64,000 nucleotides of DNA from the NCBI RefSeq assembly GCF_020215665.1, contig NZ_CP084061.1, forward strand, positions 2,884,001 through 2,948,000, read 5' to 3'. Below are positions 50,059 through 64,000 of this stretch, in pieces. The translations under genes and the position numbers were made by a program. Position 1 is the first letter of the stretch; each line of letters begins with the position of its first letter. The DNA comes from Blautia parvula (lineage in GTDB: Bacteria > Bacillota > Clostridia > Lachnospirales > Lachnospiraceae). Below the pieces are notes generated by a model. It was not told the origin of the DNA and did no database searches. It worked only from the letters and a program-made list of their open reading frames with translations.

Positions 50059-51021
50059 TCAATTTTCTGCTGCTGCTCTTTTTATATTCCGCATTTCATT
50101 TTTTTCTATGGCCACTCTTGTAATGATCAAAGCCAATATTAAAATAACACCTCTTATCAATTGATTTACATTTGACGTTCCACCTAATAATGTCAATCCG
50201 TTATCAAGCATGAAATAGGTCATAACACCAATGATCAATTTATAAATACGTGTACCAGAGCCTCCCTGTACCGGAATACTCGCCAAGAACATGCAGAGCA
50301 TTACTTTCATCTCCACTCCTGCGCCCATTGTATTAGATGCCCCTCCAAGACGAACTACAACAAATATTCCTGCAATACCCGCAAGCAGGCCTGAAAGTGT
50401 ATAAGCCACAATCTTTACAAGACTCACCGATGTCCCGGTAAATTCCATAGCAAGTTCATTTTCACCGATTGCACGTGTATATTCTCCAAAAGGCGTAAAC
50501 CGGAAAATATATCCGAATATGATCAATACAACAAGGGCAATCAGCAATTTTATACCCAGGTTATCTAGCTTAAGCATCTGCTCATTGCAGATAAACACCT
50601 GAGACTGCAGCCACCAGTTTAATACAGCTCTGATTGCCAGCAGCATTGCCAGTGTACACATAAAGGAGGGAACTTTAAACTTTGATATAACAATACCATT
50701 TAGCAGACCTACTGCTGCCCCTACCAATATGGCTGCCGGAAACATGGCCCAGAAGCCAATGTTCAGAGCTGCATAAGCCCCCGCTGTTCCTGCCAGACCG
50801 ATAATAGAACCACAGGTGATATCCGTTCCTCCCATAGCCACTGCAAAAATCATCCCCACTCCTGCCAAAAGATAAGGTACAGCCTGATTTATAATGTTCA
50901 GAATATTATTTACGGCAAATACCTGACCGCCTGTTAAAATGACAGCTGCTAATGTAATGACGAAAAAAATAATCAGGGGCATGACTGCGCCTATGTCAAT
51001 ATTCTTTTTACTCTTCTTCAT
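50059..51021 (-). CDS. Sugar ABC transporter permease (RbsC-like), second of two
   Basis: 320 residues, about eight to ten membrane segments of the BPD_transp_2 family. MGGTDITCGSIIGLAGTAGAY and VVVRLGGASNTMGAGVEMKVML are family hallmarks. It overlaps the ATPase gene by one base. With the other permease (52.5-53.5 kb) it should form a heterodimeric channel, unlike classic ribose systems with one RbsC. Confidence 0.9.
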   Translation of the reverse strand: MKKSKKNIDIGAVMPLIIFFVITLAAVILTGGQVFAVNNILNIINQAVPYLLAGVGMIFAVAMGGTDITCGSIIGLAGTAGAYAALNIGFWAMFPAAILVGAAVGLLNGIVISKFKVPSFMCTLAMLLAIRAVLNWWLQSQVFICNEQMLKLDNLGIKLLIALVVLIIFGYIFRFTPFGEYTRAIGENELAMEFTGTSVSLVKIVAYTLSGLLAGIAGIFVVVRLGGASNTMGAGVEMKVMLCMFLASIPVQGGSGTRIYKLIIGVMTYFMLDNGLTLLGGTSNVNQLIRGVILILALIITRVAIEKNEMRNIKRAAAEN

Positions 51022-52535
51022 CAGATCATCGCCTCCACTATTTTCTCTTCAGCAAATCCCTCATCCCTGCTCAGCATCCCAGAAACTTTTCCATCTTTCA
51101 TAATGAGCACTCTGTCAGACATTCCCATCACCTCCGGAAGTTCATCGGATATCAAAAGGATTGCTCGTTTTCTTTCCTTCGCCTCTTTTTCCAGCAAATT
51201 ATAGATATATGCCTTTACCCCGATATCCACTCCTCGTGTGGGACAATCCAGAATAATAAAATCCAAATCCTGGATCAGCCATCTGCTGAGATTCACCTTT
51301 TGCTTGTTTCCCCCTGACATGCTGTTTACCGGAGCATCTACACTGACACACTTTATTTCAAATCTTTTTTTTGCATCATCTGCCAGTTTTTTTAATTTTC
51401 GGGGGCTTACAAACCAGCAGGAGGATGCCATTTTGGACAGCGATGGAATCTGGATATTTGTAGAGATTTTAGCCTGCAGCATAAGCCCTTCTGAATCCCT
51501 GTCTTTTGAGAGATATGCCCCATGGTTCCCTGTAATGTCTTTTGTCCGCTTTACCGCCTTGACACCATCCTTTGAATAGATCAGAATCTCCCCGCTCCGG
51601 ATATGTTCTTTGCCGTAAATAGCGCGTCCCAAATCATGAATACCGCCATCTGACAATCCGCAGACTCCAAGAATTTCTCCTCTGAACAGATCAAAACTGA
51701 TACTCTGCAGCTTGTCTGTCGTTAGTTCCTTTACACTGAGCACCAATTCTCCGCTATTGGAAGCTTTTTTGTCTTCCCTGTAATAGTGGGCACTCACCTC
51801 CCGTCCAATCATGACCCGTTTTAATTCATCCAGATTAAATTCCTTCTTTTCCACAGTCATAACTGCACTTCCGTCGCGCAATACCGTAATACTGTCACAA
51901 AGTTCCAAGGTCTCTTCCAAGTCATGAGAAATCATAATGATCGAATGCCCATTCTTAACAAAGTCTGACATGATCTTATATAATTTCTGACGGTTATCAT
52001 GTGACAATGCCTGTGTGATTTCATCCAATACCAAAATATCAGGCTCTATAGATAACGCTTTTACCAGTTCCACCAATTTTCTCTGTTCTATAGACAAATC
52101 CTGAGTCAATACTTTTAAAGGAATGTTCTCAAACCCGTATTTTTCCAAAATATCTGATGCGGCCTTTTCCATGGTTCTCACATTTAAAATTCCATATTTC
52201 GTAAACTGTTTTGTGTGTCCCATAAACATATTGACTGATACAGGAAGGGTTCCCAGAACTCCCAGTTCCTGTACTACCATTGCCACTTTGCAATTATTGG
52301 CATCAATCGGACTTTTAGGCGCATACTCTTTCCCGTTCAGAAACATGCGGCCGCTTGTAGGAATCTGAATCCCACAGATCTGAGAAGTCAGAGTGGATTT
52401 TCCAGACCCATTCTCTCCTATCAATCCCCTGATTTCTCCCCGCTTAAGCTGAAAATCCACATCAGCATTGGCATGGGTAACGCCATACCACTTATTTAAT
52501 TTATCAATCTGTAATATCACTTTATCTGCCATCAT
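51021..52535 (-). CDS. Sugar ABC transporter ATP-binding protein (RbsA/MglA-like)
   Basis: 504 residues with two ABC cassettes. Cassette 1 has Walker A IGENGSGKSTL, signature LSIEQRKLVELVKAL and Walker B ILVLDEITQAL. Cassette 2 has the degenerate Walker A CGLSDGGIHDLG usual for this family, signature MSGGNKQKVNLSRWL and FIILDCPTRGVD. It powers import by the two flanking permeases. Its start overlaps the upstream permease stop (ATGA), with AAAGGAG 7 bases upstream. Confidence 0.92.
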   Translation of the reverse strand: MMADKVILQIDKLNKWYGVTHANADVDFQLKRGEIRGLIGENGSGKSTLTSQICGIQIPTSGRMFLNGKEYAPKSPIDANNCKVAMVVQELGVLGTLPVSVNMFMGHTKQFTKYGILNVRTMEKAASDILEKYGFENIPLKVLTQDLSIEQRKLVELVKALSIEPDILVLDEITQALSHDNRQKLYKIMSDFVKNGHSIIMISHDLEETLELCDSITVLRDGSAVMTVEKKEFNLDELKRVMIGREVSAHYYREDKKASNSGELVLSVKELTTDKLQSISFDLFRGEILGVCGLSDGGIHDLGRAIYGKEHIRSGEILIYSKDGVKAVKRTKDITGNHGAYLSKDRDSEGLMLQAKISTNIQIPSLSKMASSCWFVSPRKLKKLADDAKKRFEIKCVSVDAPVNSMSGGNKQKVNLSRWLIQDLDFIILDCPTRGVDIGVKAYIYNLLEKEAKERKRAILLISDELPEVMGMSDRVLIMKDGKVSGMLSRDEGFAEEKIVEAMI

Positions 52536-53503
52536 TTCGATACTCCTTTATAATTGAGTTTTGAAATGACACCACAAAGGATAACGATCACACCAAGCAG
52601 GATATCCTGCCCTGTTCCGGAAGGTACACCGAGCAGTGTCAAACAGTTAAACAATCCGGCGATCAGCAGTGAACCAAACAATACCCCTGCCGGAACACCG
52701 ATAATGGACTCAAAGGATGTGGCAAGCAAAAACACTGCCAGGGATTTAAATATCTGAGACACTGAGTTCATTCCCGTGACTGCTGTCAAATGGCCGTTAA
52801 AGCTGATATAACACATTGCGGCCACTCCGATGAACAGACCGCCGATCAACGTACCAATCAGCAGCGACTTATCTTTTTTGACCCCCATTGCGCCGGCTAC
52901 TCCCGCATTACATCCCAGTGCACGTATATTCATTCCAATTGATGTATAATTATATAGAAAATAACATACTGCAAATCCGGCCAGCCAGACAATGATCATT
53001 CCCGGAATACGACCAAACCCTCTTGATGCTCCCATCTCCAGTACAGCCGTTCCCTGAGTTTTTGACATCCATTCAGAATACATTCCCATTACTGCCTCAT
53101 ACACCAGCGTCATTCCAAGGCCTGCGATCCATGAAGGGATTCTTGCTTTCAAACCAATGGTTACTGTCAATAATTCACAGCAGGCGGCACAGATGAGACA
53201 GCCTGCGATCAATCCTGCATAACCCAGGCCAAGTTCAGCGCTTAAGTATGCCCCCACATTCCCTGCTAAAATAACAGTAGCTCCAATTGACAGATCCACA
53301 ATTCCCCCTGTCATGATAAACACCATTCCAAAACCGACTAATCCCGGAAATACTGCATGTGAAACTGTTGAAATGATATTTGTCGTGGAAAAGAATCGGT
53401 TCCCTGTCAGCACATTAGCAAGGACAAACAGCAGCGCATAACATACATAAAACACAGCCATCTTAAACCAGCGTTTGTTCTTTATTGAAGATTTCTCTGC
53501 CAT
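52532..53503 (-). CDS. Sugar ABC transporter permease (RbsC-like), first of two
   Basis: 323 residues, BPD_transp_2 family. FIMTGGIVDLSIGATVILAGNVGAYL is the hallmark, and YISFNGHLTAVTGMNSVSQ follows. It starts 15 bases after the binding-protein gene. The cluster order is binding protein, permease, ATPase, permease. Confidence 0.9.
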   Translation of the reverse strand: MAEKSSIKNKRWFKMAVFYVCYALLFVLANVLTGNRFFSTTNIISTVSHAVFPGLVGFGMVFIMTGGIVDLSIGATVILAGNVGAYLSAELGLGYAGLIAGCLICAACCELLTVTIGLKARIPSWIAGLGMTLVYEAVMGMYSEWMSKTQGTAVLEMGASRGFGRIPGMIIVWLAGFAVCYFLYNYTSIGMNIRALGCNAGVAGAMGVKKDKSLLIGTLIGGLFIGVAAMCYISFNGHLTAVTGMNSVSQIFKSLAVFLLATSFESIIGVPAGVLFGSLLIAGLFNCLTLLGVPSGTGQDILLGVIVILCGVISKLNYKGVSK

Positions 53504-53518
53504 AACATTCCCCTTCGC

Positions 53519-54760
53519 TTATTCTAATCCGGCTGCTTTCATCTCATCGGCCGAAATAGTGCCTTCCTGATACTTTGCGTTCAGTCTGTCTTCCAGAGAA
53601 TAAGCGGTTACTATGTTGTCCTCAAAATCCTTTAATGACATACCAAGCATTGCCTGACATTCCTTGTCTGAATAGATACAATCCCCTGCGATATATGTAT
53701 TAAACAGATCCATCTCCTCTACCGGAATACTAAAGGCAGGTACCATATCAACATAAGGCGCTGTACCATCTTCATTCAGCATAGGTGTACCATTTAATTT
53801 ATTACACATCAGCGCTGAAGCATAAGAACCACACACTAAAAAATCGCCAATCAGGAATTGTACATAATCCTCATCCTTCATAGAAGAAAGAATCTTCTCA
53901 TCAAAATCTGCTGTAATGATCTTCATATTCTTATCATTATATTTCTTAAGAGTTTCCAGTGCCGCAGAGCCAAATGTTGAAGCGCCTGTTGCCATAATGA
54001 AATCCGCATCCGTATGTGCAAGATACATATCTTCCGCCTGCGTCACCGCCTGGTTTGAATCATCTGTATGCTGTGTTCCCAGTATCTTTCCACCTGCCTT
54101 TTCAAAGGTATCAGTAAATCCCTCTATACGGGGAGTACCTGACGCATCTCCCACACCGGAAGCGAGGATAAAGCAGGTTTCATATCCCTGTTCAATGGCA
54201 AATTCTGCCATCTGTACACCGTAAGAATAGTTGTCCGGTGTGGTGGCACCGCAGTAGGTCTTATAGGTAGCTAATTTATCTGTGATTGCCTGATCTGTAG
54301 GAACTTTGTCTGCCAGAACAAACGGAACTCCTGCCTTTTCACAAAGCTCTGCAACCGACAGATACAGGGAATCATTTGGAATCCATAATACAAGTCCATC
54401 ACAGCCAGACGCGATCATATTTTCAACATCAGTCACCAACTGATCCAGGGATCCGTTATCGCATACTCCCATTGCTTCATAGCCACAGGCTTCGATCACG
54501 TGTGACGTATTATTAGCCAGTGTATCAAGTGCATAATCACCAGCCGCAAAATAGTTGTACCCAATCTTTCCTTTTGAAGCTTCAGATTTTCCCTCCTCTG
54601 AAGCTCCGTCGGCTTCGCTCGCCGCTTTTGTTTCTTTTTTTGCTGTTGTTTCTGTTCCCGATTTGGAAGCCTCCGCCGGAGATGCTCCGCAACCTGCCAG
54701 ACTCAGAAAAATTACAGATGCTACAGTTGCCGCAATTGCCTTTTTTAATCCTTTTTTCAT
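53519..54760 (-). CDS. Sugar ABC transporter substrate-binding lipoprotein (RbsB-like)
   Basis: 413 residues. The signal peptide has lipobox LSLAGC (Cys24), then a Ser/Thr/Lys/Glu linker (about 25-65). A periplasmic-binding-protein type 1 fold follows (VENMIASGCDGLVLWIPNDSLY, AGVPFVLADKVPTDQ, DFIMATGASTFG). It is larger than ribose-binding proteins by the linker and a C-terminal extension. It should bind a monosaccharide-like or glycoside ligand outside the cell. It is the first gene of the ABC operon, with a promoter and a dyad operator upstream. Confidence 0.9.
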   Translation of the reverse strand: MKKGLKKAIAATVASVIFLSLAGCGASPAEASKSGTETTAKKETKAASEADGASEEGKSEASKGKIGYNYFAAGDYALDTLANNTSHVIEACGYEAMGVCDNGSLDQLVTDVENMIASGCDGLVLWIPNDSLYLSVAELCEKAGVPFVLADKVPTDQAITDKLATYKTYCGATTPDNYSYGVQMAEFAIEQGYETCFILASGVGDASGTPRIEGFTDTFEKAGGKILGTQHTDDSNQAVTQAEDMYLAHTDADFIMATGASTFGSAALETLKKYNDKNMKIITADFDEKILSSMKDEDYVQFLIGDFLVCGSYASALMCNKLNGTPMLNEDGTAPYVDMVPAFSIPVEEMDLFNTYIAGDCIYSDKECQAMLGMSLKDFEDNIVTAYSLEDRLNAKYQEGTISADEMKAAGLE

Positions 54761-54873: not shown

Positions 54874-56451
54874 TTATGATTTCTTGTTGCTGCATTTGCG
54901 GTAGCTTCCAGGTGAAACTCCTACATATTGCTTGAACACTCTGCTAAAATATTTCTCATCTGCATATCCGATCAGCGGAGCTATTTCATTTACTTTTAAA
55001 TCTGTCTCTTCCAGAATTTCCTTTGCTCTCTCCACACGATAATAATTCATATATTGGACCAGGGTCTTCTGTGTTTTTTTCTTATAAAGGTCGCAGAGAT
55101 AATTAGGTGTCAGATTAACTGCCTTTGCAATATCCTCCAGCGTGATTTCCTCTGAATAATGCTGATTGATATATTTTTGTGCCAGATATATACGTTCATC
55201 GGGACGCTGCATCAGAATCTTTATTTTACTAAGATACCGGCATGCAAAAAGATAAATCCAATCCAGCAGATCATTTAAGGTCCCATAAGAATCCTTTAAT
55301 TCATAATACTCTTTGGATATCTCAGCCCATGTTTCTATGGAAATCAGATTTGACTTGTACATACGCCTTTCAAACTGTATATAAAACTCCTCCGCCATAG
55401 CATATGCAAAATCCACTGCTCCCTCTCCATACATCTGTATATTTTCCACCTTGTGTACATACCATATTCCGAACATTTCCATATCACAAACATCCAGAAT
55501 ATTGTTCAGTCTGCTCTTTTCCTCTACCGTATAATTATCATTCCAATGATCACTCTTATGATTCAAATCACTCCATCGAATGATCCGGTCTGTCCCAACC
55601 AAAATGCGGTTTCTGCAAATGTACAATGCTTCTTCTATATACTCGTCCAAACGGTAAATAGATGTACAGGTATGCGGAACTGTGATGGTATATTTCATTT
55701 CGGGATGTACTTCAATGACTGCTTCACATATTTTCTGTTCCATATCAAGAAATTCCTGAAAATCATATACATTATTTAGCACGACTAAAAAGTATTTTCG
55801 AAACTGATACACAGCAAACTCTCCGGCTGGTATACTGGAACTGAAAATATCCAGGATAATATGAAAAAGAACCGCGCTTGTCTCTTTTTCCTCACGCCCG
55901 TCCTTGCCATCTAATACTACCAGGCCAATATTAAACCTCCCCTCGCTCATATTCATTTCATACTCATCATTAATCTCCCATAAAAGCTTTGTCCTGAAAT
56001 ACGCATTGTTGCTGCTGATATTTTTAAGAAACTGCTGTTTTAGCTTATTAAGTCTCATTTCTGTAAACACTCTGAATTTCTGCTCTGCAAAGCTTTCCAT
56101 ACTTTCTCTTCTCAATATATTCAACAGCTTACTATCTTCAACCGGTCTGTAGATATATTCATACATCATATGATCCATTCTTCCATTATCTCTGAAAATC
56201 CCCGCATAGTCAGAGATAACAATGGTAATTATATTTTGTCTTATATTGAGTTCTTCCGCCAGTCTGTAAATTTCCCTGGCTCTTTCATCTATGATCACGA
56301 CCTCCACAGATGCAGCGTCCAAAGACTCTATGGCCTTAATGACTGAATCTGTTTCATCAATAACTGCATATTCAAGCCTTTCTGAAGCAATCATTGTCTT
56401 TAGCTGTAGTATAAGCTGTGCGTCGGGCGATACGATCAACAGATTTTTCAC
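54874..56451 (-). CDS. AraC-type response regulator with a degenerate receiver
   Basis: 525 residues. The N-terminal receiver-like domain (about 1-118) keeps D55 (VVIIDERA) and S80, but the acidic pocket is SPD instead of an Asp pair and the conserved Lys is Arg102 (YRPVED). A central domain of about 290 residues and a C-terminal AraC double HTH (about 423-520, ITLEDIAKAVNLTPNYL) follow. It starts at GTG with AGGAGGG 6 bases upstream. It lies next to the sugar ABC operon but has no sensor kinase beside it, so it may respond to a ligand through the middle domain (inference). Confidence 0.87.
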   Translation of the reverse strand: MKNLLIVSPDAQLILQLKTMIASERLEYAVIDETDSVIKAIESLDAASVEVVIIDERAREIYRLAEELNIRQNIITIVISDYAGIFRDNGRMDHMMYEYIYRPVEDSKLLNILRRESMESFAEQKFRVFTEMRLNKLKQQFLKNISSNNAYFRTKLLWEINDEYEMNMSEGRFNIGLVVLDGKDGREEKETSAVLFHIILDIFSSSIPAGEFAVYQFRKYFLVVLNNVYDFQEFLDMEQKICEAVIEVHPEMKYTITVPHTCTSIYRLDEYIEEALYICRNRILVGTDRIIRWSDLNHKSDHWNDNYTVEEKSRLNNILDVCDMEMFGIWYVHKVENIQMYGEGAVDFAYAMAEEFYIQFERRMYKSNLISIETWAEISKEYYELKDSYGTLNDLLDWIYLFACRYLSKIKILMQRPDERIYLAQKYINQHYSEEITLEDIAKAVNLTPNYLCDLYKKKTQKTLVQYMNYYRVERAKEILEETDLKVNEIAPLIGYADEKYFSRVFKQYVGVSPGSYRKCSNKKS

Positions 56452-56517: not shown

Positions 56518-57876
56518 TTAGTTATTGTTACTTCTCTTTTCTTCCAATTGTCTTCTGATCTCTTCACTGTCTGAATCGCTGAGGTCCCAGAAAAAGCACA
56601 CCAGCGCGCCGAGGAAGAACAAAATAGCCGGAAGGAGATTGACTGTAAAGTTAATTCCCCTTAAAGTTTCTGCTGATTGCTGGATATTTGCCTGATAACC
56701 GAAGAATCCCAGAAGGAGGGCTCCTACAGCTCCGCCTACGGCATTACCTGCCTTGGTCGCCAATGTAAACATGGCATAGGATGTCCCATCCGTCCGCACT
56801 CCGCTTTTCAATTCCTGATAATCGATAGCATCTGATGTCATGGACAGTGTGATTGGAAAGGCCAGATTAAACGCTCCGAAAATAATGTGTCCAATGATCA
56901 CTAATACAAGATTATCAAAGGGAGCCAGGTAAACGATCAGCAAGCCAACTCCCTGCATGGCAAGACCCGTCATCAGGGTTCTTTTCTTACCAAATTTGCG
57001 CATAAGCGGCGCCACAAAAAAGGATGCCAGCGTACCGCCTATTGCAGGAATCGTCATAATTACTGCGATCAATGTAAATGCCCCGAGACAATAGATCACA
57101 TAGTAAGTTGTAATAGCAATCCTTCCCATAAAAGCAGTCATCTGAAGCAAAACAATGGCAAATACCAGAATCAAATATTTATTGCTGACGATATTCTTAA
57201 TGGTCACCTTCAACGGTATTTTTTTGTCATTATTACCCGGCATGATCCTTTCTTTACATCCAAGGAAAACACACCAGAATAGAGGTACCGAAATAATACA
57301 ATAAATCATTGCCGTCATGAAATAACCACGGCCTGTCGCTACTTTTGCACCATTGGAAAATGCAAGCATGATAAAGCTGGAACACACATTGATCAGTATC
57401 ATACCAACACCCATACCAACTGAACGGCAGGCATTGATTTTGTTCCTCTCATCCGCATCTGTGGTCATAACGCCAGCCAAAGCGCCGTAAGGAATATTTA
57501 CCAGTGTGTACAGCATACCGGCAATAATATACGTCACGGCAGCCCATGCAATTCCCTTCGTCCCATTTCCAAATGGAGCAGTAAATGTCAATATGATCGC
57601 CAGTGCCAAAAATGGACTGCCAAATGCTATGTACGGACGAAAACGTCCAAATCTGCTCTTTGTGCGTTCTGCAATCGCCCCCATCATGGGGTCATTGATT
57701 CCATCCCAGATCCGTGCGCACAGCATGATAGCAGAAACAGCAACCGGCGCGAGTCCTACAATATCCGTATAAAATATGGTAAGATACGAACCCACAAAAG
57801 TCCAGCCGAACTGGCTTGCCAAATCACCCAGTCCATAGCAGAACATACTCCATTTTGTAACCCTTTTTTCTTTCAT
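56518..57876 (-). CDS. GPH family sugar/glycoside:cation symporter (MelB-like)
   Basis: 452 residues, 12 membrane segments. It starts WSMFCYGLGDLASQFGWTFV, and DGINDPMMGAIAERTKSRFGRFRPYI is the GPH loop with the cation-site acid. Members move glycosides, pentosides or hexuronides with Na+ or H+. It lies between the RpiR regulator and the AraC-type regulator, so it is a second candidate uptake route for the glycoside cluster (or an exporter of a product). Confidence 0.88.
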   Translation of the reverse strand: MKEKRVTKWSMFCYGLGDLASQFGWTFVGSYLTIFYTDIVGLAPVAVSAIMLCARIWDGINDPMMGAIAERTKSRFGRFRPYIAFGSPFLALAIILTFTAPFGNGTKGIAWAAVTYIIAGMLYTLVNIPYGALAGVMTTDADERNKINACRSVGMGVGMILINVCSSFIMLAFSNGAKVATGRGYFMTAMIYCIISVPLFWCVFLGCKERIMPGNNDKKIPLKVTIKNIVSNKYLILVFAIVLLQMTAFMGRIAITTYYVIYCLGAFTLIAVIMTIPAIGGTLASFFVAPLMRKFGKKRTLMTGLAMQGVGLLIVYLAPFDNLVLVIIGHIIFGAFNLAFPITLSMTSDAIDYQELKSGVRTDGTSYAMFTLATKAGNAVGGAVGALLLGFFGYQANIQQSAETLRGINFTVNLLPAILFFLGALVCFFWDLSDSDSEEIRRQLEEKRSNNN

Positions 57877-58026: not shown

Positions 58027-58803
58027 TTACACCATTACTTTTTCTCTGAATCGGATAGACAAAAGATTAATGTACATGGCAAAACGATAGTCATCAATGA
58101 TCCCCATATCACCCTCAAAACAATAAATATGATCTGCGTACTTTTTAAATTGGGGATAATAGGCATCCGTGAGCACAAACAGGGCCGCGCCCCGTTCTTT
58201 GATTTTCCTGATGATCTCGTTTACATCAACCGCATCAGATACAATGGGGGCAAGCATAATCACCATATCCTTTTCTGTCAGATTTTTGATATCCTCCAGT
58301 TGTTCCGATGCAGAATTTTTTATCTCACTCATATGGCCAGTCATGATCAAATCGCCCTGAAAACGGTATTCAGAAAACACGGTCCCATTGGTATAAAAAT
58401 TAACCTTTTTACTGTTTTGGATTGAATCTATGATCTGATCCATTTTCTCAACACTGATATCCTCCCTCAGATTACTGACCTGTCTCTCCATCAATGCCAG
58501 ATAAGCCACCAGGTCATCTTCATACTTTGCTTTTGCATTAAAAGAAACATATCTGTTTAGCATCTCATAGTTCTTTATCGTATTGATCAGGTTATTCTTA
58601 AAATCCTGAAACCCACGGTAACCCAGCTTTTTACTAAGCCGGCTAATGGTGGTTGGCGAAACATAGCAGAGTTCTGCCAGATCATAGATTGTGCAGTTCT
58701 TTACCTTATGAATATTTTGCAGAATGATTCCCACAACGGTATGGTAAATATCCCCATCTTTGCTATTATTATAATATACCTGCAAGCCTTCCAGTGCGTG
58801 CAT
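58027..58803 (-). CDS. MurR/RpiR family transcriptional regulator
   Basis: 258 residues. The N-terminal HTH_6 (YDLAELCYVSPTTISRL, then KLGYRGFQDFKNNL) precedes a C-terminal SIS domain (about 105-235, VNFYTNGTVFSEYRFQ, MVIMLAPIVSDAVDVNEII) that usually binds a phosphosugar. It is the local candidate to sense a sugar intermediate and control the glycoside genes around it (inference). Confidence 0.88.
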   Translation of the reverse strand: MHALEGLQVYYNNSKDGDIYHTVVGIILQNIHKVKNCTIYDLAELCYVSPTTISRLSKKLGYRGFQDFKNNLINTIKNYEMLNRYVSFNAKAKYEDDLVAYLALMERQVSNLREDISVEKMDQIIDSIQNSKKVNFYTNGTVFSEYRFQGDLIMTGHMSEIKNSASEQLEDIKNLTEKDMVIMLAPIVSDAVDVNEIIRKIKERGAALFVLTDAYYPQFKKYADHIYCFEGDMGIIDDYRFAMYINLLSIRFREKVMV

Positions 58804-58893: not shown

Positions 58894-59394
58894 CTACCTT
58901 TTTATCCTACGCAGCCGTCTTTCAAATACCGAGACACCTATTCCCACATAATACACACCAGCCGCCATTGATATCAGGATTTTAATGCTTTCTATCAGCC
59001 ATCCCTCTGACATCCTTCCCAGACTACCCAGTGTCAGTGCAAAGCCGCAAAGCCAGGCCGGAAGGTATGGCTTCTCCCGGAATATCACATTTGCAAACAG
59101 GACAGCGCTCCCGCCCATAATAAACAGGACCAGAAAAAGCGCCGCATTTTCATTAAAATACTTACCCAACAATTTTATCTGCCAATCAGCCAGATTTCCC
59201 CAGATAACGCCGCCTGTAAATCCGAGCATGATCCCATTTGCTCTGCATGCCTGATTGCCCGCTGCCACATAAATTCCTGCGCACACCAATGCGATCCAGC
59301 TGCACTCAATACCGATTATTCCTCCGAGTACAGCCCATACAGGCGGCAGCAATGCAACTCCTAACGCTAAAATATATTTTTCTTTTTTTTCCAT
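58894..59394 (-). CDS. DUF1097 small membrane protein
   Basis: 166 residues from the ATG at 59394, with GAGGAG upstream. An in-frame upstream extension of 69 residues overlaps the PhlG-like gene and looks non-native. About five membrane segments (LGVALLPPVWAVLGG, GIYVAAGNQACRANGI, FTGGVIWGNLADWQI). YcdZ/DUF1097 proteins have unknown function. It follows the hydrolase gene across a terminator-like hairpin. Confidence 0.75.
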   Translation of the reverse strand: MEKKEKYILALGVALLPPVWAVLGGIIGIECSWIALVCAGIYVAAGNQACRANGIMLGFTGGVIWGNLADWQIKLLGKYFNENAALFLVLFIMGGSAVLFANVIFREKPYLPAWLCGFALTLGSLGRMSEGWLIESIKILISMAAGVYYVGIGVSVFERRLRRIKR

Positions 59395-59406
59395 GATCTC
59401 CTCACA

Positions 59407-59434
59407 TAAAGAAACGGCCATGTTTCCATGGCCG
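59407..59434 (-). terminator. Terminator at the end of the catabolic operon
   Basis: CGGCCATG (59415-59422) / CATGGCCG (59427-59434) around TTTC, followed by TTTCTTTATG on the minus strand, 16 bases past the hydrolase stop. Confidence 0.65.
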
Positions 59435-59449
59435 GCTCTTTTCATATTT

Positions 59450-60241
59450 CTACTGAATGTTTTGTTCTGCGTACAGCGACGGTAAAATCGATGCCAGATT
59501 TGCCATCTCACAAGCATTGTGTTCTGCCAGGCCCAAGAGTGTATCCAGTGTTTCTCTGGGTGTATCCGGTCCCATAGCACAAAATAATCCGTCAGGTCCA
59601 AACTGATACCCCTTCCAGAACCGGCTTCTCAGCTCAATCCCACTGCCGTCTGCCATTTCTCTGACAAAATGACAGACCACACCGGGCTGAGGGGCTGACA
59701 ACGGTTCTGCGTCGATAGCTTTTGATATCACATTTCCTCCATCTGCCAGCAACAGGGAGGATTCCTTCGCTAATTTCCCATCAATCCCCAGATTTTCCGG
59801 GACAAGATGATCTAAAAATATCAAATCCTCCACACCTTTTCCCACATCTTCACTGGACCATCGAAATCCGGCTTTATAATGGTCCCGCGGATTCCAGATA
59901 CGGTACCGCAAAGTCTGGTCCTCTTTTGACCACCAGTTATTCCAGAACTGATACATTTGAAAAGTCACTCCGGGCATTTTGTTCAGCATGGCAACGTATC
60001 CACCGCCATTTGGAAGCGTACATACTCCATACTCACACTTCATATACCCGTCCTTCAAAATATCATTCATATTGCCATTTTCTGCAAGAAGAGCATCTTC
60101 TACTGGTATTTCCTGTCTGCTTCGCAGATATTCCAGTGCCTCTTTTGCTGGTGTGGCAGGCTGCCTGTTCAAATATTTAGCATAAGGCTGACGCTTCTCT
60201 TCCTCCGTCAATTCCGGCTTTTGAATGGCTCTGCTTTTCAT
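59450..60241 (-). CDS. PhlG/phloretin-hydrolase family zinc C-C hydrolase
   Basis: 263 residues. It matches the DAPG-hydrolase fold: FQMYQFWNNWWSKED (94-108), RYRIWNPRDH (112-121), and the paired ligand motif H241-x3-E245 (EHNACEM). H121, H241, E245 and an acid near E149 would be the zinc ligands by analogy with PhlG (H, E, H, E). PhlG removes an acetyl group from diacetylphloroglucinol; phloretin hydrolase of gut Eubacterium cleaves phloretin to phloroglucinol and a phenylpropionate. It lies 22 bases after a TIM-barrel isomerase gene. Aglycone cleavage after deglycosylation is my inference. Confidence 0.75.
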   Translation of the reverse strand: MKSRAIQKPELTEEEKRQPYAKYLNRQPATPAKEALEYLRSRQEIPVEDALLAENGNMNDILKDGYMKCEYGVCTLPNGGGYVAMLNKMPGVTFQMYQFWNNWWSKEDQTLRYRIWNPRDHYKAGFRWSSEDVGKGVEDLIFLDHLVPENLGIDGKLAKESSLLLADGGNVISKAIDAEPLSAPQPGVVCHFVREMADGSGIELRSRFWKGYQFGPDGLFCAMGPDTPRETLDTLLGLAEHNACEMANLASILPSLYAEQNIQ

Positions 60242-60263
60242 GGTGATTCCCCCATTTTTTCTA

Positions 60264-61184
60264 TTATATTACATACTGTTCCATATACCGTTTACTGAGC
60301 TTCAGGCTGTTCAGAATAGCTTCTTCTGTACCCTCAAACGCCTTATCCTCTACTTCGATACAAGTATACCCATCGTATCCTATATCTGTCAATGCACTGA
60401 CATATCTTCCCCAGTCTACATCCCCCAGCCCCGGTAGCTTCGGTGACATAAATTCAAGCGGATACGCCATAATCCCGGCACTGTCCAATCTGTCCTGATA
60501 TATTTTGATATCCTTATAATGCACATGAAAAATTTTGTCTTTAAACTCATAAATTGGTTTTATATAATCTATCATCTGCCATACAAAATGAGATGGATCA
60601 TAATTAAGTCCAAGATATTCACTTGGCAGGATTTCAAATACCTTTTTCCAGACTGCAGGAGTGGTCATCAGATTCTGCCCACCCGGCCACTGATCCGGTC
60701 CAAATAGCATGGGACAGTTTTCAATAGCAATCCTTACAGAATACTTTTCAGCCGTTTCTATGATTTCCGGCCAGATTTCCTTCACTAATTCCAGATTCTG
60801 CTCCACGTTTTTCGTCTGGTCTCTTCCTATAAATGTCGTAACCATTCCCACACCAAGTTTTGCACTTGCCTGTATCAATGCCTTTAAATGAGAGACTGCC
60901 AGGCATCTCTTTTCAGGATCAGCATCCATAGTATTGGGATAATAAGCCAAAGAAGAAATTTCTACCTTCCTCTTCCCAGCATATTCCAGAATATGCTGTG
61001 CGTAAGTATCATCCTCTATAACACGCTCTGCGTCAATATGTGACACGCCTGCATATCTTCTCTCTGCTTTTCCCTTTGGCCAGCAGGCAACCTCCACACA
61101 CCCGAATCCTAATTCTGATGCTGTATCCATCATTTCTTCATAACTGCTCTGCTCTAAAATGGCAGATACAAAACCTAATTTCAT
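60264..61184 (-). CDS. Sugar phosphate isomerase/epimerase-like TIM barrel
   Basis: 306 residues of the AP_endonuc_2 (xylose isomerase-like) family. Likely divalent-metal ligands, in strand order, are the Glu in RIAIENCPM, the Asp in GLNYDPSHF, the His in FHVHYKD and the Glu in CIEVEDKAF. In clusters with Gfo/Idh/MocA enzymes such proteins epimerise, isomerise or hydrate 3-keto-sugar intermediates. Exact reaction unknown. It lies 15 bases after the oxidoreductase gene. Confidence 0.82.
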   Translation of the reverse strand: MKLGFVSAILEQSSYEEMMDTASELGFGCVEVACWPKGKAERRYAGVSHIDAERVIEDDTYAQHILEYAGKRKVEISSLAYYPNTMDADPEKRCLAVSHLKALIQASAKLGVGMVTTFIGRDQTKNVEQNLELVKEIWPEIIETAEKYSVRIAIENCPMLFGPDQWPGGQNLMTTPAVWKKVFEILPSEYLGLNYDPSHFVWQMIDYIKPIYEFKDKIFHVHYKDIKIYQDRLDSAGIMAYPLEFMSPKLPGLGDVDWGRYVSALTDIGYDGYTCIEVEDKAFEGTEEAILNSLKLSKRYMEQYVI

Positions 61185-61199
61185 GATGACACCCCCTGT

Positions 61200-62309
61200 T
61201 TATAATCGGATTTCCTTACCAAGTTCATCGGACTGATAAATCGCTTCCAAAATCTGTGTGACAACAAAGGCCTGTTCAGGCTTTACCAAAGGCTCTGTGT
61301 CATTCAGAACCGCATTCAGCCAATGTTCTGCTTCTATTACTCCCGGATCCCCTGCTCCGCCTTCAAAATAAGCCACATTTCCTTTTGCGGATATTTTTTC
61401 TTCCATAAGCTGACCATTCTTCCCTCGGTTATAGATCAGTTCATCTACCGGATATCCCATACCTGAACGGATTTCCGCCCCTGCCTTAGTTCCGCAAAGT
61501 GTTGTAGACGCCTCTCTGGAATCCAGCATATTGATCGCCCAGGCTGCTTCCAGATTGATCACAGAGCCATCCTTCATTTTGATAAAGCCCATGGCAGAAT
61601 CTTCAACCTCATACGTGTCAGGGTCCCATGCCCCAAATTCATTTCCTTCAGTAGCTTGCTGTAAATGTCCCAGTTTATAGAAAACTTTTCCTGTTACACT
61701 CTCCGGCTCATAGTTGTCCATCATCCACAGAGTGATGTCTAATGCATGGGTTCCGATATCAATCAGCGGCCCTCCGCCCTGCAGCGCTTTATTCGGAAAA
61801 ACACCCCAGGTGGGCACTGCTCTTCTTCTTACGGCATGTGCTTTTCCATAATAAATTTCACCAAGCTCTCCGCTTTCGCAGGATTTTTTCAAATTTTGGA
61901 CCTCTGGTCTGAAGCGGTTCTGATAACCTATCGTAAACTTTTTACCGGATTTTTTCCATGCATCCAGCATCTTCTTTGCATCCTCTGTGTTGTGGGCCAT
62001 GGGTTTTTCACACAATACATGCTTCCCCGCTTCAAAAGCCGCAACCGTGGCCGGACAATGGACCACATTTGGAGTCAGCACATGTACCACATCGATTTCC
62101 TTGTCCTTCAGCATTTCATTGTAATCTGTGTATACCTTTGCATTTTCTGTTCCGTATTCTTTGGCAGCTTTCTCTGCACGTTCTTTAATAATATCGCAAA
62201 AAGCTGTCATTTCACACTTATCGCTCTGGCTCTTCAATGCCGGCATATGCTTGTTATTGGCAATTCCGCCGCAGCCGATCAATCCAATCTGTAATTTTCC
62301 GTTCTTCAT
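61200..62309 (-). CDS. Gfo/Idh/MocA family NAD(P)-dependent oxidoreductase (DgpA-like candidate)
   Basis: 369 residues. The N-terminal Rossmann fold has GLIGCGGIANNKHMPAL, and the catalytic-lysine motif CEKPMAHN has K102. The C-terminal domain has GYQNRFRPEV and GGGPLIDIGTHALD, with D184 and H188 as the likely catalytic acid/base pair. Relatives oxidise a sugar hydroxyl, and in gut C-glycoside pathways DgpA oxidises C3 of the glucosyl group. It lies 13 bases after the alpha-like deglycosidase gene, which fits that role. Confidence 0.85.
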   Translation of the reverse strand: MKNGKLQIGLIGCGGIANNKHMPALKSQSDKCEMTAFCDIIKERAEKAAKEYGTENAKVYTDYNEMLKDKEIDVVHVLTPNVVHCPATVAAFEAGKHVLCEKPMAHNTEDAKKMLDAWKKSGKKFTIGYQNRFRPEVQNLKKSCESGELGEIYYGKAHAVRRRAVPTWGVFPNKALQGGGPLIDIGTHALDITLWMMDNYEPESVTGKVFYKLGHLQQATEGNEFGAWDPDTYEVEDSAMGFIKMKDGSVINLEAAWAINMLDSREASTTLCGTKAGAEIRSGMGYPVDELIYNRGKNGQLMEEKISAKGNVAYFEGGAGDPGVIEAEHWLNAVLNDTEPLVKPEQAFVVTQILEAIYQSDELGKEIRL

Positions 62310-62322
62310 ACTTATCTCCCCT

Positions 62323-63288
62323 TTACGAATTTAAAATCTTAGTATTCAATGCTACAAAGTGTTTCAACTGCTCTTCTGAATCAATAGTTTCATCAAAATG
62401 ATGCCCCTCATACTCGCTTGCAATATAACCTTTATATCCCAGATCCCGAATTGTTGTAACAATCTCTTCAAACGGAATACATTCATCGTGTTCATCGTTA
62501 TCCAGATAATAAAATTTTCCATGGATATAGAACGCACAATCAATGATATCCTTGAGCTGCTCTATTCGTGCCGGTGCACTGAATTTTGCAAACATTTCTT
62601 CGGCTGTATGTTTTTCAATTTCATTAAAATCCCCGTTTAAGATCCGGTCAAGATCTCCACCTTTTTTATGTAGTTCCGTGATTTCCTGTATCTTATCTTT
62701 TCTGCATCCAAAAGAAATCGCCTGATCAATATACAGCTGATGAGGGTATTTCTGGAAAATGCTAAAATCAGGTACAAATCCAAGCACGCCCCTTCCCTCA
62801 TTCTTCATAATAGAAAAATACTCTTTCCATACAGGTACTTCCGGATGATGTGGGTGATGCATCTCAATGGTTAGTTTCATGCCCAGTTTCTTGCAGAACG
62901 GAATCATTTTTCGGAAAATATCCGGTGAAATCGCGTGCTGCGTTCTGACCATTGGAAATCCGGCTTTTTTCGCATATATTAAATCATTTTTAGTAAACTG
63001 GATGATTTCCTCTTCTGTCAGATCTCTGTCTGTCCTTATTCCCATATCAATATACGCACTCCAGCAAACAGGTTCAAGCTCATATTTTTCAAGCAGACTT
63101 TTGAACTCTGCCAGCCAATTATCCGATGGATACGGATATTCCGGGACCATCTGTGCTGCTACAATTTCAATCCCCTCATATCCCATATCCTTAGCCTTTT
63201 TCAGAACCCCTTCCAAATCCAGTTTTTCATGGATATATTCTGTTGAAAAACTATATAAAGAGATTCCCAATTTAATATCCTGCTTCAT
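62323..63288 (-). CDS. TIM-barrel protein resembling C-glycoside deglycosidase alpha subunit (DgpC/CarC-like)
   Basis: 321 residues of the AP_endonuc_2 family. The metal and catalytic positions I can see are E142-M-H144-H145 (TIEMHHPHHPE), D174 (FVPDF), H256 (YIHGKFYYL) and E292 (IASEYEGHH). Characterised C-glycoside deglycosidase alpha subunits are TIM-barrel proteins that use a metal-bound site and a nearby His to eliminate the aglycone from a 3-keto C-glycoside. The DUF6379 protein encoded 12 bases upstream is the matching beta subunit. An ordinary sugar isomerase is the alternative. Confidence 0.75.
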   Translation of the reverse strand: MKQDIKLGISLYSFSTEYIHEKLDLEGVLKKAKDMGYEGIEIVAAQMVPEYPYPSDNWLAEFKSLLEKYELEPVCWSAYIDMGIRTDRDLTEEEIIQFTKNDLIYAKKAGFPMVRTQHAISPDIFRKMIPFCKKLGMKLTIEMHHPHHPEVPVWKEYFSIMKNEGRGVLGFVPDFSIFQKYPHQLYIDQAISFGCRKDKIQEITELHKKGGDLDRILNGDFNEIEKHTAEEMFAKFSAPARIEQLKDIIDCAFYIHGKFYYLDNDEHDECIPFEEIVTTIRDLGYKGYIASEYEGHHFDETIDSEEQLKHFVALNTKILNS

Positions 63289-63300
63289 ATATGTTCCCTC

Positions 63301-63717
63301 CTATTCCGCAATCTTTTTCTCCGTAACATCACTTTCCAACACCAGATATTGGCCGAAATAACCGGTATACGGAACTCTGTGTTTCATATATACATTCAGT
63401 TCATGAACTCCCGCTTCAAGGCCTCCATCTCTGAATACCTTTACCGTACCCTTGTCCCGCACAAACCAGTATTCTTTAAAACACTCTGAAAGTTCATCCA
63501 TGAGAAATAATTTATTATTGACTTGCAGTTGAATGTCCTCTTTGGGAATCTCAATCCCATCTATTTTAAAGGTAAGTGCTTCGATACAGCTTAAAAAAGC
63601 TCCGCGATAGGACGGATATTTAATATCAAACTCATATCCTGTCTTTAAGCCATCCACGAACGTATTCCTGATATTCCCTTTGCAGATTAATATTTTATTA
63701 TATGCCTGAAAATCCAT
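63301..63717 (-). CDS. DUF6379 / C-glycoside deglycosidase beta-subunit-like protein
   Basis: 138 residues, all-beta in appearance, with no signal peptide or membrane segment. FVDGLKTGYEFDIKYPSYRGAFLSCIEAL and GGLEAGVHELNVYMKHRVPYTGYF are the recognisable parts. This small family (DUF6379, renamed for the beta subunit of C-glycoside deglycosidase) forms a stable complex with a TIM-barrel alpha subunit. Here the two genes are adjacent in the expected way. Recognition is from family memory. Confidence 0.72.
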   Translation of the reverse strand: MDFQAYNKILICKGNIRNTFVDGLKTGYEFDIKYPSYRGAFLSCIEALTFKIDGIEIPKEDIQLQVNNKLFLMDELSECFKEYWFVRDKGTVKVFRDGGLEAGVHELNVYMKHRVPYTGYFGQYLVLESDVTEKKIAE

Positions 63718-63734
63718 AACATCTGCTCCCCTTT

Positions 63735-64000
63735 CTATTTTTCAAATTCCACTGCCTTTCCTGTTGCAGAAGATTTCCGCACTGCATCCATCAGGCACAA
63801 TACCCGTCTTACTTCCGAAAGCCGGATTGCATCCTCTTCCAGCCCTTTTCTCGCATTAATGTAATTCACAAAGAAATCCCTATGCTCTGTATGTACTTCC
63901 GGTAATTCCTCCTCATACAGTAATCCCGGTTCCGGCTCGCCAAAGCTTCTGGTGGGGCCAGCGGAAGTCATGGTCAGTTTTCCGGGAACGCTCTCCAAAA
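63735..64000 (-). CDS. Gfo/Idh/MocA family oxidoreductase, C-terminal part (partial)
   Basis: The last 87 codons are in view; the gene continues past the window edge. The reading ends ELPEVHTEHRDFFVNYINAR, then EDAIRLSEVRRVLCLMDAVR, SSATGKAVEFE. This is the typical Gfo/Idh/MocA C-terminal pattern in which a helix is followed by S-x-x-x-GK-x-V. It is a second oxidoreductase of the operon, 17 bases upstream of the DUF6379 gene. It might act in the reverse step (reducing the freed 3-keto-sugar) or on another substrate. Confidence 0.7.
   Translation of the reverse strand, partial: LESVPGKLTMTSAGPTRSFGEPEPGLLYEEELPEVHTEHRDFFVNYINARKGLEEDAIRLSEVRRVLCLMDAVRKSSATGKAVEFEK

Follow-up and report, generated by a model that had tools for sequence, protein, structure and literature searches.

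C-glucosides of rooibos, guava, mango and buckwheat resist ordinary glycosidases, and to our knowledge only few gut bacteria are able to open them. A gene set of Blautia parvula raises the question whether one operon could serve both to remove the C-linked sugar and to split the aglycone that is then released. The set lies at the end of a stretch of 64,000 nt, called the window here (positions 2,884,001–2,948,000 of contig NZ_CP084061.1, assembly GCF_020215665.1; a single contig of 6.25 Mb). An earlier note, made from the letters of the window, had described six tightly spaced genes and proposed that they act together on polyphenol C-glycosides. All six are present on the minus strand with open reading frames (ORFs), and profile searches confirmed their families (PF19906, PF18089, GFO_IDH_MocA and AP_endonuc_2); the set is, however, cut by the window end. 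It runs ∼2.7 kb further and comprises eight genes, so that the observation is confirmed and larger than first described.

The order of the eight genes is TIM0, Gfo1, Gfo2, CGDB, CGDA, Gfo3, TIM2 and the PF18089 hydrolase gene Phl, where CGDA and CGDB denote the alpha and beta subunits of a C-glycoside deglycosidase (CGD). From TIM0 to the hydrolase the intergenic gaps measure 15, 9, 17, 12, 13, 15 and 22 nt, the 12 nt separating the adjacent CGDB and CGDA genes. Upstream, outside the window, the set is completed by the remainder of Gfo2 and by two further genes, namely Gfo1, the third of the Gfo/Idh/MocA type, and TIM0, the third TIM barrel. In the genome of 6.25 Mb, PF19906 and PF18089 each match this locus only. 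We read the set as an operon that serves to break down an aryl C-glucoside with an acylphloroglucinol aglycone, and give this reading a probability of about 0.6. New at this locus are a PF18089 hydrolase that lacks the lid of its family and the coincidence of lid loss with linkage to CGD genes.

Genes for sugar removal

The CGDB protein scored far above the cut-off of PF19906 (115.7 against 27.6 bits) and matched eight PDB sequences, among which the best was 9m3a_B, from the PDB entries of P581a/W974-1 (98.7 bits), with DgpB (7bvr_B) at 80.2 bits. CGDA likewise had eight PDB matches, every one of them from an entry in which the CGDB search also hit a chain. It is nearer to DgpC (217 bits) than to DfgA (136 bits) or to the alpha chain of AgCGD2 (7dnm_A, 110 bits). 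The proposed alpha/beta pair is thus supported. Since every PDB match belongs to the CGD type, we rejected the view that CGDA is a common sugar isomerase whose partner has nothing to do with it.

The active site of CGDA is also retained. For PuCGD, manganese ligands and the catalytic residues His143 and Glu301 have been described (PMC8563793); E142, D174, H256, K258 and E292 of CGDA align with the ligands, and H144 and E294 with the catalytic pair. According to docking described in that paper, Tyr303 of PuCGD would clash with a C6-glucoside. This position is His296 in CGDA and is also His in the relatives at loci L171 and L064, so that the specificity of CGDA may differ from that of the enzyme of strain PUE. 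At another locus (L168:15980–17371, genome G110) one ORF matches both CGDA and CGDB and thus represents a natural fusion of the subunits; the PDB chain 8qrz_A likewise matches both.

The assignment of the Gfo/Idh/MocA genes to the DgpA type was borne out as well. Besides a confirmed GFO_IDH_MocA match, Gfo3 showed 587 bits to DgpA (7xr9) and 471 bits to 9m3d, with the following chain at just 110 bits. The nearest PDB entry to Gfo2 is 9m37 of P581a, deposited as DgpA2 with isoorientin. The elements of the Dgp, Dfg and Car systems, i.e., a DgpA-type oxidase, a PF19906 beta subunit, an alpha subunit with its active-site residues and adjacency of the two subunit genes, were therefore all found at the sequence level, and C-deglycosylation is a well-supported predicted function of this gene set.

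The same two-step scheme and the same families are known from dfgABCDE of Eubacterium cellulosolvens, from CarABC of soil bacteria and from the P581a and W974-1 entries 9m3a, 9m37 and 9m3d. In the dgpABC genes of Dorea strain PUE (DgpA, DgpBC/PuCGD), a DgpA-type oxidase is likewise combined in one set with CGD alpha and beta subunits carrying the active-site residues. Transporters also accompany both, inside the PUE cluster (PMC8398226) and near the gene set here. Compared to dgpABC, with the accessory genes of PUE left aside, the set at the window has three DgpA-type genes, three TIM barrels and the PF18089 hydrolase. Searches of the open-licence literature returned no paper on the P581a/W974-1 PDB entries, and none on DUF6379 or on 3-keto-glucal hydratase.

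A PF18089 hydrolase without a lid

The second half of the question concerns the aglycone. The proposed PhlG-type hydrolase belongs to the DAPG hydrolase family PF18089 (146.8 bits, cut-off 22.7), and its predicted structure has a confidence score (pLDDT) of 92.8. Query-normalised template modelling (TM) scores of 0.71–0.76 were obtained with 5xey, 5xe5 and 3hwp, the three PDB entries that match Phl at E < 0.001, compared to at most 0.38 for the other listed matches (ranks 7–50). H121, E131, H241 and E245 of Phl align with H137, E168, H278 and E282 of 3hwp_A, which we take to be the four zinc ligands in each protein; all four positions are conserved in 131 of 141 aligned PF18089 proteins. Thus, the zinc site expected of this hydrolase is retained, and Phl has the family, the fold and the four ligands in common with phloretin hydrolase (Phy of E. 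ramulus, 5xe5 of M. abscessus) and PhlG (3hwp). A degenerate enzyme was rejected in view of the kept ligands and the pLDDT of the model. Three other PF18089 proteins, at L082:8421–9128, L148:8847–9704 and L149:6632–7441, lack most of the ligands (NKKE, NRQE and NKQS, respectively) and, judging from these residues, are possibly non-catalytic or repurposed.

Phl is, however, no equivalog of PhlG. It reaches only 58.6 bits with the PhlG equivalog model NF047887, far under the cut-off of 600 bits, it is 35% identical to a homolog in E. ramulus ATCC 29099 (L115), and it lacks the lid of the family. The spacing between H121 and E131 amounts to 9 aa, and the lid of ∼20 residues is missing. Both residues sit on a single tight hairpin in the Phl model, whereas the model of the E. 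ramulus homolog forms two short helices in the lid segment (residues 124–127 and 134–138). In lidded proteins (n = 128), this segment usually carries a His (113 proteins) and a Trp (104 proteins), located four and eight residues ahead of the zinc Glu, respectively. An enzyme without the lid that bears these residues may act differently on phloretin or no longer act on it, and together with the low identity to the E. ramulus homolog this indicates that the substrate may not be phloretin. A compound bulkier than phloretin, or different from it, would be expected.

How widespread is the short spacing? In a survey of Lachnospiraceae it was found in 3 of 67 distinct PF18089 proteins, with 18–37 aa in the other 64. 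The three are Phl of the window and the proteins of L064 (genome G291) and L065 (genome G321), and these were also the only ones with CGD genes in the same locus among 73 distinct hydrolase-family ORFs, surveyed in loci of at least 4 kb (21 of the 73 with less than 5 kb on one side, 36 with 8 kb on both sides). An enlarged set of 155 PF18089 proteins comprised sequences of at least 200 aa after removal of near-identical rows, with wide-scan ORFs above 600 aa trimmed to their last 330 residues and survey ORFs above 500 aa excluded. Five of the 155 share the 9-aa spacing, and the 150 lidded members have 20–37 aa. All five lid-less proteins, which come from three genera, are encoded no more than 10 kb away from CGD genes. 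Among the loci examined, whose flanks were often short, this applied to none of the lidded proteins. Since many flanks are short, and part of the 155 proteins is known only from loci under 4 kb, unlinked does not always mean distant.

The two additional lid-less members come from G414 and G423 (L279 and L281), which belong to the genus of G321. There, as in L065, the hydrolase gene is 7.6–7.7 kb away from DgpA; in L279 and L281 its distance to CGDB is 8.8 kb. Because the search that detected these two used a profile of the three lid-less proteins known before, they represent a confirmed prediction in one genus rather than independent cases. As L279, L281 and L065 share a genus, the five proteins stand for three genera and not for five events. 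When the search was extended to the order, 13 of 392 genomes had a match, and of the matches whose lid spacing was measured (all but short fragments) those of G000, G321 and G414 alone were lid-less. At the level of the class, where 6 of 291 genomes had a match, no further lid-less protein came to light. Placement in trees conflicted: the lid-less members received 77/79, with long branches, in one tree, and Phl stood apart from L064 and L065 in another. They may be one clade, and may go back to one event.

The missing lid allows for a different order of reactions, in which Phl acts first, while the C-glucosyl acylphloroglucinol is still intact or is present in its 3-oxo form, and the CGD then acts on C-glucosyl phloroglucinol. 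Lid loss would open the zinc site to a substrate that still bears the sugar, in line with the tight hairpin in the Phl model and with the finding that the lid is absent exactly in the CGD-linked members found (5 of 155). It could as well signal a different aglycone, and given the conflicting trees the five proteins may reflect a single event; we consider this order of reactions unlikely. A broader version, that lid-less PF18089 proteins form a distinct subfamily of C-glycoside clusters which cleaves bulky acylphloroglucinol C-glycosides before or beside sugar removal, is at best a tentative suggestion. If true, one operon would direct two different enzymes that break C–C bonds at one and the same substrate.

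Alternatively, the true substrate could be an O-glucoside such as phlorizin, whose 3-oxo form would eliminate the aglycone by itself, so that Phl cleaves phloretin and CGDA/CGDB serve other glycosides. A DgpA from Dorea accepts O-glucosides for oxidation, and the majority of them then release the aglycone with no need for another enzyme (PMC11239390); this makes phlorizin a live alternative; the three different DgpA-type enzymes of the operon also fit it. However, CGDA and CGDB, with their active-site residues kept, stand amid the same tight gene set, and we regard an O-glucoside as improbable.

Coupling of hydrolase and deglycosidase genes

Of 397 Lachnospiraceae genomes, 29 had a PF18089 match and 35 a PF19906 match at E ≤ 0.001; in 27 and 34 of these, respectively, the match exceeds the Pfam cut-off. 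Both families occur together in 12 genomes, compared to 2.6 expected (P = 6e-7). In G291 (L064) the gene order is CGDB-CGDA-four ATP-binding cassette (ABC) importer genes-DgpA-TIM2-PF18089, and thus shares the succession DgpA-TIM2-hydrolase with the window. TIM2 and DgpA are 81% and 73% identical between the two loci, the hydrolase just 31%. The ABC importer of the window has the same four-gene order as that of L064, with 41–52% identity over the three subunits compared. Three species that belong to a further genus (L065, L279, L281) also have hydrolase and CGD genes joined, and in them a relative of the GPH symporter directly precedes DgpA. The comparison of gene clusters across Lachnospiraceae that the earlier note had proposed bears out a joining in three genera and an excess of shared genomes, while linkage taken alone is weak.

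Several observations weigh against a common pathway. Besides the loss of a lid that normally carries conserved residues, linkage within 10 kb is modest, with 3 pairs against 0.62 expected in the 12 genomes (P = 0.025) and, without the window, 2 linked pairs (P = 0.13), for which reason linkage counts alone were rejected as proof of coupling. In L065, L279 and L281, regulator genes on the opposite strand lie between the hydrolase and DgpA. Only 1 of 20 analysed genomes of the genus, namely that of the window, encodes the hydrolase. In G364 (L171), whose CGD set is the nearest to that of the window among those found (66% identity for CGDB, 82% for CGDA, 83% for Gfo3 and 79% for TIM2), no hydrolase gene follows TIM2. 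Moreover, CGD or DgpA genes were found in none of 80 PF18089 loci from genome contigs, the best 80 of 189 relatives (34 loci of at least 20 kb, 31 of 10–20 kb and 15 under 10 kb). The scan that yielded these relatives used one conserved pattern which is absent from the L064 and L065 hydrolases, and was therefore unable to find members of their kind. A contig scan with the single Phl protein as query returned no relative.

Could Phl thus be a passenger, or serve an unrelated acylphloroglucinol, having reached its operon position by chance? The near-chance linkage without the window, the L171 locus and the absence of the hydrolase from all other analysed genomes of the genus (19 of 20) are what such an explanation draws on. 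It has to contend with the joining in three genera, the gene order common with G291, a spacing of 9–22 nt within the set and lid loss that coincides with CGD linkage, and we judge it quite improbable. Cleavage of an acylphloroglucinol is likely to belong to the same pathway as C-deglycosylation.

The presence of both activities in one organism is not new. Catenibacillus scindens and C. decagia, also Lachnospiraceae, C-deglycosylate and split the aglycone to phenolic acids, and Catenibacillus encodes DgpA, DgpBC and Phy, with dgpA described apart from dgpBC (PMC11170127). The sections consulted mention no Phy beside the dgp genes, whereas both are found in one set here. In agreement with the earlier note, no operon with both steps appeared in the titles and abstracts of the open-licence literature matching our searches; what is already known is the pair of activities in Catenibacillus.

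Predicted route and accessory genes

From the observed gene content, gene order, families and active-site residues we infer the following reactions for an aryl C-glucoside with an acylphloroglucinol aglycone. The glycoside would be taken up by the neighboring ABC importer or GPH symporter. Gfo3, with Gfo1 and Gfo2 as alternates, would oxidise the C3 hydroxyl group of glucose in the manner of DgpA, nicotinamide adenine dinucleotide being recycled on a 3-oxo sugar. CGDA/CGDB, which keep the required residues, would then use metal and acid/base catalysis to break the C–C glycosidic bond, giving the aglycone and an unsaturated 3-keto sugar. These two steps build on relatives of tested enzymes. TIM2 or TIM0 might hydrate or isomerise the keto sugar towards glucose (rehydration, reduction), the weakest step of the scheme, and one that like uptake is suggested by gene context. 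Finally, hydrolysis of the acyl-aryl C–C bond by Phl would turn the aglycone into a phloroglucinol plus a carboxylic acid, as the conserved zinc site of this diverged enzyme suggests, and the DUF1097 protein may transport one of these products. Nothofagin and aspalathin (reviewed in PMC8745648) fit the scheme, but as guesses that no result singles out.

Table 1. Features of the gene set and its neighborhood. Positions are those of the window; those with the prefix L002 refer to locus L002.
Feature	Position	Strand	Best evidence
TIM0, TIM barrel	L002:8908–9681	-	best NCBIfam model hydroxypyruvate isomerase, 167 bits, under cut-off
Gfo1, DgpA-like Gfo/Idh/MocA	L002:7807–8892	-	340 bits to 9m3d, 326 to 7xr9
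Gfo2, DgpA2-like Gfo/Idh/MocA	3′ part 63735–64000; whole L002:6736–7797, to window-equivalent 64796	-	422 bits to PDB 9m37
CGDB, C-glycoside deglycosidase beta (DUF6379)	63301–63717	-	PF19906, 115.7 bits
CGDA, C-glycoside deglycosidase alpha, TIM barrel	62323–63288	-	217 bits to DgpC 7xrf/7bvr
Gfo3, close DgpA relative (glycoside 3-oxidase type)	61200–62309	-	587 bits to DgpA 7xr9
TIM2, IolE-like TIM barrel	60264–61184	-	PF01261, 118 bits
Phl, PhlG/phloretin-hydrolase-type hydrolase without lid	59450–60241	-	PF18089, 146.8 bits
Intrinsic-terminator-like hairpin 3′ of Phl	59415–59434	-	8 pairs, 6 G-C, then TTTCTTTATG; consensus match only
DUF1097 membrane protein	58894–59394	-	PF06496, 54.7 bits
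RpiR-type regulator	58027–58803	-	PF01418, 51 bits
GPH-family sugar/glycoside:cation symporter, candidate uptake	56518–57876	-	TIGR00792, 354.5 bits
AraC-type regulator	54874–56451	-	HTH_18, 70.7 bits
ABC sugar-type importer: binding protein, permease, ATPase, second permease	50059–54760	-	Pfam (first three) and ORFs

A part of TIM2 in processing the keto sugar after its release is a reasonable guess. Its PDB matches are weak (2zds, 56 bits; 8ro4, a 2-hydroxy-3-keto-glucal hydratase, 25.5 bits over 88 residues only). Relatives above 300 bits were detected in 50 of the 397 Lachnospiraceae genomes; of the 35 genomes that have PF19906, 23 carry such a relative (P = 3e-15). In G364 an X-Pro dipeptidyl-peptidase-like gene (S15; L171:9515–11260) occupies the position after TIM2 that the hydrolase has in the window. 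Upstream of the operon, two small ORFs (L002:10038–10804) resemble, by eye, broken pieces of a transposase.

Phl is the last gene before the hairpin at 59434–59415, which separates it from the DUF1097 gene; terminator-like hairpins are no commoner in the region than by chance (8 found against 6.4 in shuffles). In the 29 genomes with PF18089, four of six DUF1097 genes directly adjoin a PF18089 gene, and another such pair is present in L286 (G424). DUF1097-PF18089 neighbors were seen at L075, L125, L127 and L286. In none of the best 80 of 189 PF18089 contig loci was DUF1097 a neighbor, so that the pairing is recurrent but not general. It is possible that DUF1097 is a functional partner, transporting the phloroglucinol or the acid.

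In G265 and G126 the hydrolase-DUF1097 pair stands beside a set of NuoG-like and FAD reductase genes, the large ORFs of G126 being judged by their first residues, and a comparable set sits in the CGD cluster of G321 (L160). The NuoG-like iron-sulfur/flavin proteins and their FAD_binding_2 partners map to L075:1354–7542, L125:7837–14015 (first residues only) and L160:1121–6917, and are candidate reductases of the flavonoid C-ring. The genome of the window has just a partial match of 27% identity to the FAD protein of the G321 cluster, which would agree, though weakly, with a compound whose ring need not be reduced beforehand, for example a dihydrochalcone or a benzophenone.

The gene set suggests a coordinated route for compounds such as the C-glucosides of rooibos tea. 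A single operon for sugar removal and aglycone splitting would provide a simple genetic marker for full degradation of C-glucosides, and would help to assign accessory genes, such as the TIM barrels and DUF1097, to individual steps.

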